DNA from: Rikenellaceae bacterium DTU001
GTDB lineage: Bacteria > Bacteroidota > Bacteroidia > Bacteroidales > DTU049
Assembly (NCBI GenBank): GCA_001512885.1
Contig: LFSZ01000074.1
Location: 1-47,407, forward strand
DNA: 47,407 nt
Reading direction: 5' to 3'
A program made the position numbers and the translations under genes. Positions 8,841 through 15,353 of the stretch are shown here, piece by piece. Every line of letters begins with the position of its first letter. Positions within the stretch are counted from its first letter, which is position 1. The notes under the pieces were generated by a model that was given only the letters and a program-made list of their open reading frames with translations, did no database searches and was not told where the DNA came from.

Positions 8841-9470
8841 TTAGCTGCCTCCTAATTCTCTAAAAAGATTTTTAATATTTAGCATTTGTATCATGAGCTC
8901 CATTGGATGATAGTCATAGATTTCATTAGTAGTGCAACATTCATCCACAAAAAACCAACTATACTTTATTGTATTGAAATTTGGCAATTCAATGTATTTA
9001 TTATTTATGATTTTTAATTTTTGATAATATACACTATCCAAATAGGTAGTAGGCTTATATGCTTGATTTTTGCTTTCCATTATTATTTTTTTATTATATT
9101 TATGTTGCAATTCTATGATTTCTTTGTTTACCCTTTCATTATTTTGTTTAGCAGATAATATTTTTTCTATCGACCAAATTGGTTCAAATTTTAGTAAAAT
9201 AAATACCTGTACCTTATCAGTTATAACTGATTCTAGGCTATCAGACTCGATATTTTTATTTTTACAATATAAAGAATCTTCACAATAAATTTTTAAATAT
9301 GGCTTATCTAATTCAAAATGCCAATTCGAGGGTAAAACAGATAAAATTTTTGATAGTGTAGGATCATCTTTAGCCCATGCTAAAACAAGTGAATCAGAAG
9401 AATTATTAACACCAAACAAAAAAATATATTGAAAAAATATAAATAAAATACTCAAATAATTCCTTTTCAT
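8841..9470 (-). CDS. Predicted secreted protein of unknown function
   Basis: This 209-residue protein has an N-terminal hydrophobic signal sequence (MKRNYLSILFIFFQYIFLFG) and no other membrane segment. Cys-containing segments (YCEDSLYC near the middle, DECCTT near the end) could form disulfides after export. The charged stretch around residues 100-130 may be helical. I recognise no family. It is convergent with meaB, 12 bases apart, and no partner gene is visible. Confidence 0.65.
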   Translation of the reverse strand: MKRNYLSILFIFFQYIFLFGVNNSSDSLVLAWAKDDPTLSKILSVLPSNWHFELDKPYLKIYCEDSLYCKNKNIESDSLESVITDKVQVFILLKFEPIWSIEKILSAKQNNERVNKEIIELQHKYNKKIIMESKNQAYKPTTYLDSVYYQKLKIINNKYIELPNFNTIKYSWFFVDECCTTNEIYDYHPMELMIQMLNIKNLFRELGGS

Positions 9471-9567
9471 CTTAAACTTTTAGAATAATACATACTAAAA
9501 TCGTGCCAACATTAGATAAAAATTTGAAAATATTATATTTTTTTACAAGTAATATAATTGTGATTTT

Positions 9568-9625
9568 ATTATTTGTAATTGATTACAAATAATTACAAAC
9601 GAATATATTCGTAAGTAATTGATTA
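9568..9625 (+). promoter_or_regulatory. Nested palindromes and direct repeats, probable operator
   Basis: Three overlapping symmetric elements lie here. At 9568-9593, two perfect 12-base arms (ATTATTTGTAAT and its complement) flank a TG centre. At 9591-9620 a 30-base palindrome is centred on the perfect 14-mer ACGAATATATTCGT (9599-9612), with two mismatched base pairs. The 11-mer GTAATTGATTA occurs at 9575-9585 and again at 9615-9625, exactly 40 bases apart. The block ends 28 bases before the promoter box of the SSB-like gene. The symmetry suggests binding by a dimeric regulator; the regulator is not known. Confidence 0.6.
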
Positions 9626-9653
9626 TTATCCGACTACAGCGAGAGCTTGATAT

Positions 9654-9661
9654 TAATTTTG
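9654..9661 (+). promoter_or_regulatory. -7 promoter box for the SSB-like gene
   Basis: TAATTTTG ends 30 bases before the ATG at 9692, just downstream of the palindrome block. Confidence 0.6.
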
Positions 9662-9691
9662 CCAAACAAACATTTCAAAAAAGAGTGAATT

Positions 9692-10165
9692 ATGAAAACA
9701 CAAGAAAAAAACAACGAAAAAATGTTAAACGAAGTAGAAAATGGTCAAGTAGAAGAATTTAGCGAAGATTTATGCTTAGACGAAAATGCTTTTGCAGAGA
9801 AATTAGCTGGTATTATCTCTGAACAACGTAGCGTAAATATGCTATTATTAAAAGGTTTCATAGCTTCTGATGTACAAGTATTCAATTATGGTACCTGGGA
9901 GAAATATAGCTTTACGCTTGGAGTATCTGAACGCAAATGGAATGGTGCAAACTTTGAATACTATAATCAATATTTACCAATAACACTAAATGGTGTATTA
10001 GCTGATATAGTAGGCAAGCAATATAAAAAAGGAAATGAAATAATAGTATTGGCTACTATACACCGTAGAGTAAAAGAAATTGATGGAAAGCGTAGAGCTT
10101 TTTATGACATCAAAGCTAATGATCTCTATGCTGTAAATAAGTCACAATCAGCTAAAGTAGCTTAA
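9692..10165 (+). CDS. Single-stranded DNA-binding protein-like OB-fold protein
   Basis: The product (157 residues) has an acidic N-terminal tail of about 45 residues and then a single OB-fold that follows the SSB pattern: LLKGFIASDVQVF, YSFTLGVSERKW, YYNQYLPITLNG, then a KKGNEIIVLATI strand and a DIKANDLY strand. It would bind single-stranded DNA in replication, repair or recombination. It lacks the acidic DDDIPF-type C-terminal tail that recruits partners in standard bacterial SSB; the acidic residues are at the N-terminus instead. It may be an auxiliary SSB rather than the main one. It is monocistronic, bounded by the operator-like block and a strong terminator. Confidence 0.75.
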   Translation: MKTQEKNNEKMLNEVENGQVEEFSEDLCLDENAFAEKLAGIISEQRSVNMLLLKGFIASDVQVFNYGTWEKYSFTLGVSERKWNGANFEYYNQYLPITLNGVLADIVGKQYKKGNEIIVLATIHRRVKEIDGKRRAFYDIKANDLYAVNKSQSAKVA

Positions 10166-10181: not shown

Positions 10182-10213
10182 AAAAAAAGCGGAGTAGATG
10201 CTCCGCTTTTTTT
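10182..10213 (+). terminator. Rho-independent terminator of the SSB-like gene
   Basis: The stem is GCGGAG/CTCCGC (10189-10194 and 10201-10206) with loop TAGATG, flanked by seven A's and an eight-T run. It begins 16 bases after the stop codon. The A-tract on the left may let it work in both directions. Confidence 0.92.
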
Positions 10214-13209: not shown

Positions 13210-15090
13210 TTATAATTCTATTTGCAAGGAAAAAATATAATATCTTCGAGGCATAGGATACCAAGCTACTGTACAGTAATTAGCATTAGTTAAATTTTTT
13301 ACCCAAATGCTATAATGCATAGATACTTTTTTGATATTATGCTCGTAAGATAATCCAAGATTTTGAACTGCATACCAGGGTAAATATCTATCATTATCAA
13401 AAGTACTAAATCGTTTAGAATTGTACGAATATTCATAATTTATTTTCCAATGATTTTTTATTGATAAATTAATAAGTTCATTAAAAATATAATTAGGTAC
13501 ATAAATAAGCTCTTTGTGAGTTTCTCTATCCTCAGCATATTGAACCAAAAAATTAGATGTAAAGCGTAAAATAAAATTATTAAACGTAAAATCTAGTTTC
13601 CAATTAGCTTGTATTCCATTTTGAATAGCTTTATTTATATTAATTGGGGTCCAGATAGCTTGATTTTCAGAGGGTTTCCATTGAATCAAATTATTGGTAA
13701 AATAATAAAAAGGATTTATTTCGCAAATAGAATAGAAAAATCCTTTATTAAATAACCATTTCACTTTAATATCAAAATTATTACTTGCTTCTGGTATCAG
13801 ATCAGGATTACCACCTGGCACCCAATATAAATCATTGAATGAGGGCAATCTCTCCAGATGGCTGAGAGCACCCGCTACAATAAAATTGTGATTACCATAT
13901 TTCCACTTTTTGCTAACTCCTATTCCGCCCTGTGGATAATATTTTTTAAAATTTTTAATTTGCAATTGCTCGCTTACCCACCATTGCCAGCCATTATTTT
14001 CGTAATTATAAATTAACGATTGATCTGTAATATATCTATCAGCTATTTTCTGATAAGCAGAGCTATTCAAATATTGATAAGAAAATCTAATTCTTAACAA
14101 CAACTGATGATCTCCAAAAGTAAAATTACTCTGATGATATATTTGTGGAGCTAAACTATTAGAAACAGTTTCTGCTGGCGGTAAATTAGAATTATATTCA
14201 TATTGCTCACTATACCAACCAAAGGAAGAATAATGCTGCCAATGAAAGCTCGATGACCAATTATATCTCAGATAAGCTAATTGAATATTTTCATTTTGCG
14301 TAGCATTATTATCTAATTGTGCACTTAATATAGAAGCTGGCACTTCATTTTGGTGATACTGAATATTAAAACCCATCTGCCATTTATTTAATTTAATATC
14401 AAAGCTGAGCTGTTGTCCCAAATGCTCATTATCTCTTTTCACTTCTAATTTATTATTATGCATTGTATTTATAAATTCATAATAATTTTTATCAAAACTT
14501 CCATTGTATTGAACTCTAAAGGCATTACCATTTTTTAACTGTTGTGAAATAGAAAATTCTATATCATTATTATTAATAGTAGCAAATGAATATCCAATAT
14601 AATAATGATTCTTGCCAGCAAAAACAGATTCAGCTTCTATGATGGAACCTAAGGCACCTGGAAAACCTAAGGAACTAAAAGCACCTTCATAATTATTAAT
14701 ACGAAAATTATTAGAAAAAAAAGATAACCATAAACTCTGCCCTAAAGAATATGACAATAAAGGAATATCATTCCAAATAAGTAAAGTATGACCAGCACCA
14801 AAACCACGAAAAGAAATAGAAGCATTCTGCACACCATATTCCTTTAGATATACAGGTGTTTGCATTTTTATTATTTGCAACCATTGTCTTTCTGCAATAG
14901 GTATGAAATGCATAGAATCGCTAATAGAGAAACTATTAATAAAAGTAGAAAGTCTACCCATTTTTTGTGTAGAATCAATGATTTCAATCTTTTGCAAATA
15001 AATGGTATCCTGACAACAAGAATAATCAGAATTGAAAATAATATAAATAAAACAAATAATAATAATCGTATGCTTATAAAAATTAATCAT
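13210..15090 (-). CDS. btuB: TonB-dependent outer-membrane receptor, BtuB-like (vitamin B12)
   Basis: This 626-residue TonB-dependent channel starts with a signal peptide (about 1-26). A plug domain follows (about 45-150), recognisable by SISFRGFGAGHTLLIWNDIPL, and then a beta-barrel of alternating aromatic strands. It ends in IFSLQIEL, although the terminal aromatic residue usual for barrel proteins is a leucine. There is no N-terminal carboxypeptidase-like extension of the SusC type. The cobalamin riboswitch 70-250 bases upstream and the BtuG-like gene downstream identify the substrate as a corrinoid. The TonB/ExbBD energising system and BtuCDF transporter are not in the window. Confidence 0.9.
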   Translation of the reverse strand: MINFYKHTIIIICFIYIIFNSDYSCCQDTIYLQKIEIIDSTQKMGRLSTFINSFSISDSMHFIPIAERQWLQIIKMQTPVYLKEYGVQNASISFRGFGAGHTLLIWNDIPLLSYSLGQSLWLSFFSNNFRINNYEGAFSSLGFPGALGSIIEAESVFAGKNHYYIGYSFATINNNDIEFSISQQLKNGNAFRVQYNGSFDKNYYEFINTMHNNKLEVKRDNEHLGQQLSFDIKLNKWQMGFNIQYHQNEVPASILSAQLDNNATQNENIQLAYLRYNWSSSFHWQHYSSFGWYSEQYEYNSNLPPAETVSNSLAPQIYHQSNFTFGDHQLLLRIRFSYQYLNSSAYQKIADRYITDQSLIYNYENNGWQWWVSEQLQIKNFKKYYPQGGIGVSKKWKYGNHNFIVAGALSHLERLPSFNDLYWVPGGNPDLIPEASNNFDIKVKWLFNKGFFYSICEINPFYYFTNNLIQWKPSENQAIWTPININKAIQNGIQANWKLDFTFNNFILRFTSNFLVQYAEDRETHKELIYVPNYIFNELINLSIKNHWKINYEYSYNSKRFSTFDNDRYLPWYAVQNLGLSYEHNIKKVSMHYSIWVKNLTNANYCTVAWYPMPRRYYIFSLQIEL

Positions 15091-15117: not shown

Positions 15118-15338
15118 CTTTTGACCCCGAAAAGAATAGTCCTAAAAAAGGATAAAAAGTTTTAGCAGGTCTTCTGGCTTGCTCACCTCTATCACCTTCC
15201 CATCTTATAAAAAGATAGTGGTTAATAGTATTAAGATAGAGGTAAAAAAGAGCTAACAGCTGCGGGCACAGCTCGGGATTCACACCCGATTCCCTATTAG
15301 TTTGTTTATAATGAATTTTTATTAAACAAACACTAAAA
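15118..15338 (-). ncRNA. Cobalamin riboswitch upstream of btuB
   Basis: Read on the minus strand, the leader contains the hallmarks of the B12 aptamer. These are AGGGAATCGGGTGTGAATCC around 15296-15277, then GAGCTGTGCCCGCAGCTGTTAG (about 15275-15254), and near the 3' end AAGCCAGAAGACCTGC (15180-15165). Just downstream, AAAAGGAG (15122-15115) can pair with CCTTTT (15151-15146), a possible expression platform that would occlude a Shine-Dalgarno-like purine run. When cobalamin binds, expression of btuB and btuG should fall. The 5' boundary is set by the promoter box and is approximate. Confidence 0.9.
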
Positions 15339-15345
15339 CTAATTG

Positions 15346-15353
15346 CAAAAATA
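15346..15353 (-). promoter_or_regulatory. -7 promoter box of the B12 uptake operon
   Basis: TATTTTTG on the minus strand fits TAnnTTTG and would start transcription near 15338, just before the riboswitch. Confidence 0.5.

Follow-up and report, generated by a model that had tools for sequence, protein, structure and literature searches.

Introduction

The late com genes of pneumococcus and the CRP-S genes of Haemophilus are competence regulons that include ssb, recA or comM. For Bacteroidota, the literature that we found, as far as its text was accessible, covers transformation genes without describing a regulator of competence. A paper on Riemerella (PMC8459023) discusses, in its accessible parts, ComEC, DprA and RecA as essential for transformation and gives a lower transformation frequency for mutants in YifB, the ComM homologue.

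Operators of the OmpR/PhoB type consist of direct repeats spaced by about one helical turn. The available passages of the respective papers report the motif GTTACAnnnnGTTACA for OmpR and TACA-N6-TACA for RstA (PMC7315122), and ArcA sites of two to five direct repeats that are mostly 11 bp apart (PMC3798270). LexA-like repressors of Bacteroidetes control recA and, in some species, ssb, and their operators are described in the excerpts at hand as short palindromes with a 5-base spacer (PMC8565304).

Here, we analysed a stretch of 47,407 nucleotides from Rikenellaceae bacterium DTU001, in the following called the window, in which an unusual concentration of symmetric DNA lies in front of a gene for an SSB-like protein. 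We compared this locus with its counterparts in the genus, the order and the phylum.

Results

A conserved block upstream of an SSB-like gene

The original prediction had pointed to nested palindromes and spaced repeats at 9568-9625, and these are all present. The 12+12 inverted repeat at 9568-9593, ATTATTTGTAAT-TG-ATTACAAATAAT, has perfect arms around a 2-base centre. In the near-palindrome at 9591-9620, 26 of the 30 bases agree with the reverse complement, and it contains the perfect 14-mer core ACGAATATATTCGT (9599-9612). The 11-mer GTAATTGATTA occurs twice, at 9575 and 9615, with a spacing of 40. Apart from a terminator stem, the 12+12 repeat is the longest perfect inverted repeat of the window; first-order Markov simulations predict 0.03 perfect repeats per window with arms of at least 12 and a spacer of at most 2, against one observed.

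However, the symmetry itself is not kept in relatives. Four congeners lack the left arm of the 12+12 repeat as well as the first GTAATTGATTA, and the window genome alone has the 14-base core in perfect form. Since the arms are not conserved, we rejected the palindromes as the functional unit; the essence of the element is a conserved block of 81 bp rather than its symmetry. The features of the locus are as follows.

9568-9593, no strand: 12+12 inverted repeat; its right arm overlaps array unit 1, its left arm is unconserved
9582-9662, + strand: 81-bp block upstream of the SSB-like gene, conserved gap-free in five species of the genus
9582-9591, + strand: array unit 1, ATTACAAATA (alignments, periodicity)
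9592-9601, + strand: array unit 2, ATTACAAACG (alignments, periodicity)
9602-9611, + strand: array unit 3, AATATATTCG, a weak copy (alignments)
9612-9621, - strand: array unit 4, TAAGTAATTG, opposite in orientation to unit 2 (alignments)
9622-9636, + strand: array unit 5, ATTATTATCCGACTA, in the place of the -33 box (alignments, spacing)
9654-9661, + strand: -7 promoter box TAATTTTG, TAnnTTTG (sequence)
9692-10165, + strand: SSB-like gene, 157 aa, no acidic C-terminal tip (PF00436 match, translation)
10182-10213, + strand: intrinsic terminator, 13-base arms with a T run (sequence)

Between the window genome and G004, the block is identical at 68 of 81 positions, while fourfold-degenerate sites agree at 16 of 36 in the SSB-like gene and at 43 of 113 in meaB. 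The 22-mer GTAATTGATTATTATCCGACTA is present as a single copy per genome in five of the six genomes of the genus, the window genome included; the copy in G003 carries one mismatch. The SSB-like gene starts directly downstream of the block in four of five genomes, and in G003 the contig stops before the gene, with the same leader sequence. Hence the block is kept in relatives, and the palindromes are not spread over many unrelated positions. The search for GTAATTGATTA gave 7 copies in the 1.9-Mb genome versus 4 for the reversed control pattern; two of the 7 lie in the 9568-9625 region and at least three of the others inside genes. With TTGTAATNNATTACAA and 3 mismatches allowed, the whole-genome search gave 942 matches versus 876 for the reversed control, which is no clear enrichment.

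Several candidate sites were dropped. A Fur-family promoter (L011) matches TTGTAATNNATTACAA closely; as congeners do not keep the palindrome, we put this down to chance. The Fur-family gene, which is followed by a peroxiredoxin gene, has TTGTAGTTAATTACAA upstream (L011:1501-1516), likely a box of the Fur/PerR type that is unrelated to the array. Neither an FNR-like match (TTGAT-N4-ATCCG) nor a minus-strand match of the IHF type (AATCAATTACTTA) is retained in the class-wide consensus.

The -7 box proposed ahead of the SSB-like gene fits the -7 box of Bacteroidota, and the terminator predicted to close the gene was found as well. The protein matches PF00436 with an E-value of 8.7e-7 and 29.4 bits, above the curated cut-off of 26. 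It ends in SAKVA and lacks the acidic tip (DDLPF) of housekeeping SSBs. Four congeners (G001, G002, G004 and G005) possess a separate canonical SSB ending in DDLPF, whose gene adjoins a CBS-domain gene. We found no housekeeping SSB in the 117 contigs of the 97.8%-complete window genome (G000), perhaps owing to an assembly gap. A phage origin was rejected: the relatives of the SSB-like protein on viral contigs are only partial and 41% identical, and the exact repeat pair TTACAAACGNTTACAAACG, present in 7 viral contigs, precedes an SSB gene in none of them.

Two other features of the neighbourhood were recorded. The divergent gene at 8841-9470 has a -7-like box of its own within 9500-9520, which is conserved in both G001 and G004. 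The gene is in synteny in these two genomes; G003 and G005 keep the array block without this synteny. Further downstream, a cobalamin riboswitch (15147-15352, minus strand) lies ahead of a 626-aa ORF (13210-15090) that resembles a TonB-dependent receptor.

Distribution and anatomy of the array

Built on sequence alone from the five blocks of the genus, profile R1 matched in other families of the order with E-values down to 4e-8. Most of its full-length intergenic matches lie before genes for small SSBs of 108-146 aa without the acidic tip, often in tandem copies. The exceptions among those examined are in G009, with copies ahead of an ORF6N gene and of a transposase gene; the other, weak matches are mostly intragenic. 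With a refined model trained on 23 R1 loci (R2; presence threshold E<=1e-3), we detected the element in 90 of the 393 order genomes and in 77 of the 396 phylum genomes. From the phylum sample we took the best 29 loci, excluding that of the window, as an independent set of which none had been used in training. All 29 precede an SSB gene, which at L141 is cut by the contig end.

Judged from the alignments, the element is a promoter-associated, helix-phased array of units of about 10 bp (xTTACAAACG), with the typical sequence TTTACAAACG-ATTACAAACG-ACTATATTCG-AAAGTAAATG-CTTATTAACCGAATCAGG-...-TATAATTTTGC. When each independent locus is compared with itself, matching is highest after a shift by 10, 20 or 30 bases (0.44, 0.48 and 0.41; 0.30 when shuffled). 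The pattern TAYA-N6-TAYA occurs in 26 of the 29 loci (0.9 expected), TTACA-N5-TTACA in 19 (0 expected). The helical phasing suspected from the spacing of the 11-mer is therefore borne out, since the period is 10 bp and the spacing of 40 corresponds to four units. The near-palindrome is likewise explained by unit 4, which runs in the opposite orientation to unit 2; the GTAA of unit 4 is conserved across the class. In the window, the CCGA of the last unit starts at 9630 and the TTTG of the -7 box at 9658, a distance of exactly 28 bases. This spacing of 28 is found in 28 of the 29 loci, and the TTTG is kept in all of them.

The dedicated regulator proposed for the SSB-like gene is thus strongly supported by the gap-free block across the genus and, in addition, by the fixed spacing to the -7 box before SSB genes through much of the class.

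Genes downstream of the array

In some genomes only, the array is shared by the DNA-processing genes ssb, recA and comM. It precedes bcp-recA in G008 and G009, recA in G210 with a short ORF in between, and comM/yifB in G210 and G356. A gene for a PIF1-type helicase follows the array in G210 and likewise, after a short gene, in G356; a tyrosine integrase gene follows it in G577. Further targets in multi-copy genomes are ORF6N genes, an IS200-type transposase and genes with PBECR1 or LPD3 domains, as identified by Pfam searches on representatives. The uptake genes comEC, comEA and dprA were not found among the array targets read in multi-copy genomes.

The IS200-type (Y1) transposases are a family of single-stranded DNA transposases. 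Such a gene and ORF6N-domain genes stand behind arrays at L085, L180, L184 and L084, and mobile genes may thus have taken up the array. In two Bacteroidales genera, several arrays precede phage-associated nuclease-like genes of the PBECR1/LPD3 type (L166, L169, L171, L175, L176, L183 and L214), an identity confirmed by Pfam for L214 and L176.

A zinc-ribbon protein accompanies the array

The commonest neighbour of the array-ssb loci encodes an uncharacterised protein of 116-128 aa with an N-terminal CxxC...GRxDKKFCxDxCRNxYNN knuckle. This zinc-ribbon protein is present in 120 of the 393 genomes of the order sample. Each of the 74 genomes that carry a strong array (E<=1e-8) encodes it, and the 273 genomes that lack it contain no strong array (Fisher p about 2e-48, without phylogenetic correction). 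In a second, independent set of genomes, the protein was detected in 60 of 60 array genomes (E<=4e-35). Among 15 class-mates without a detected array, it is canonical in 1, remote or partial in 3 and absent in 11. Moreover, array and protein are jointly present or jointly absent among the species of genera g225, g223 and g208. In 30 of the 60 genomes, at most 1 kb separates the zinc-ribbon gene from the array on the same contig; in a quarter the distance is 1-9 kb, and in another quarter the gene lies elsewhere. In the window genome, it is found on another contig (C2, L237:1540-1914) and encodes 124 aa.

The protein resembles DUF2116 (PF09889, a probable treble clef) in its CxxC...CxxxCR knuckle, with a weak match in all 17 members. 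It differs from this family in that the member shown scores below the family cut-off and about 85 C-terminal residues fall outside Pfam. NCBIfam gave only matches below cut-off for the three members tested, and a sequence search of the PDB gave no significant match for the protein. The AlphaFold model of a homologue from a viral contig is not confident (pLDDT 60, pTM 0.36), and it was too poor for a fold search. On the viral contig L224, a zinc-ribbon homologue is encoded beside a tyrosine recombinase and a small protein ending in DDLPF; the family therefore also travels on mobile elements.

Discussion

Our data suggest that 9582-9662 is a regulated promoter of an SSB paralogue, which would belong to a regulon for DNA recombination, perhaps for competence, with the zinc-ribbon protein as its probable regulator. 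We give this reading a probability of about 0.5. The sequence comparison shows the conservation, the architecture, the targets and the co-occurrence; from these we infer binding, activation, the identity of the regulator and the physiological role. About five 10-bp units would line up along a single face of the helix, the last of them ending exactly where the -33 box would be. A dedicated activator may bind them as a cooperative oligomer, whose last subunit would recruit RNA polymerase to the -7 box without a normal -33 element. We assume activation rather than repression because the -33 box is missing. The best candidate for the activator is the treble-clef/zinc-ribbon protein of about 120 aa, which is found almost wherever the array occurs.

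The main rival reading is that a response regulator of the OmpR/PhoB family binds the array and that the zinc-ribbon protein is just a functional partner with which the small SSB forms a jointly inherited module. The direct repeats at 10, 20 and 30 bp are phased by about one helical turn as in OmpR/PhoB-type operators, and the units closely match the OmpR and RstA motifs in the published passages available (GTTACAnnnn and TACA-N6-TACA; PMC7315122). The frequent TAYA-N6-TAYA speaks for the same reading, as do the several direct repeats of ArcA sites, as far as these are described in the available text (PMC3798270). In G755, the array, the zinc-ribbon gene and the small ssb are all missing, with the canonical SSB retained; because the whole module was lost together, the zinc-ribbon protein may be a part of it and not its regulator. 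On the other hand, we found no specific response regulator linked to the array, and a pure tandem site would not usually contain an inverted unit such as unit 4. The array further differs from the OmpR, RstA and ArcA operators in its phylum, its conserved CG/CCGA ends and its nearly perfect co-occurrence with the zinc-ribbon protein. We consider control by an OmpR-type regulator rather unlikely.

An SOS operator, at which a LexA-like repressor would govern ssb and recA after DNA damage, is not supported. The non-canonical LexA operators of Bacteroidetes share with the array the phylum and the targets ssb and recA, according to the consulted parts of the source (PMC8565304), and recA stands behind the array in three genomes. 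However, GGA-N5-TCC, CTAA-N5-TTAG and TTAC-N5-GTAA are all absent from 9568-9662, so that the block contains none of the short palindromes with a 5-base spacer, and the array is built of phased direct repeats. Moreover, comM is not among the LexA targets reported in those parts (PMC8565304). These observations make LexA control improbable.

The original prediction had also considered autoregulation; the SSB-like protein would then bind the palindromes or a cruciform. The element does lie almost always before ssb. Autoregulation found no support, since the array also precedes recA, comM, helicase, transposase and ORF6N genes and the co-occurring factor is a different protein. The palindromes are unconserved, and SSB proteins bind single strands; we regard autoregulation as very improbable. 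A structured RNA leader, such as a riboswitch or an attenuator, is least probable and likewise unsupported: none of the 20 pairs that RNAalifold predicts within the block from 5 sequences shows a compensatory change, the block has no Rfam match, nothing conserved upstream of the 81 bp could act as a promoter, and the block ends in the -7 box and should therefore lie upstream of the transcript.

Returning to the regulated promoter with the zinc-ribbon protein as its probable regulator, the output would be recombination proteins that handle single-stranded DNA, with an SSB in nearly all carriers and RecA, ComM and the PIF1 helicase added in some lineages. Such a composition would fit DNA uptake (competence) or recombinational repair. 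The targets ssb, recA and comM, together with the roles described for Riemerella in the accessible parts of PMC8459023, therefore point to single-stranded DNA processing and recombination and possibly to competence. Like the pneumococcal late com and Haemophilus CRP-S regulons, the array regulon has members among ssb, recA and comM. It differs from them in that no uptake genes were found behind the array and that the regulator and the site are unrelated. We found no description of the array element in the open-access literature; this novelty is provisional, because the coverage consisted of open-access papers, abstracts or selected passages.

It is conceivable, and we put this forward tentatively, that the array defines a new class-wide regulon of Bacteroidia, in which a new family of small zinc-ribbon transcription factors would polymerise on 10-bp-phased arrays and switch on SSB, RecA, ComM and the PIF1 helicase. 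One promoter element that can be recognised across the class links SSB to RecA and ComM and tracks a single uncharacterised protein almost perfectly. The question of the regulator can be addressed directly with one protein and one probe of about 90 bp. A regulatory role would give a function to a zinc-ribbon family that is only partly covered by Pfam and, if true, would provide the missing regulator of natural transformation or recombination in Bacteroidota.
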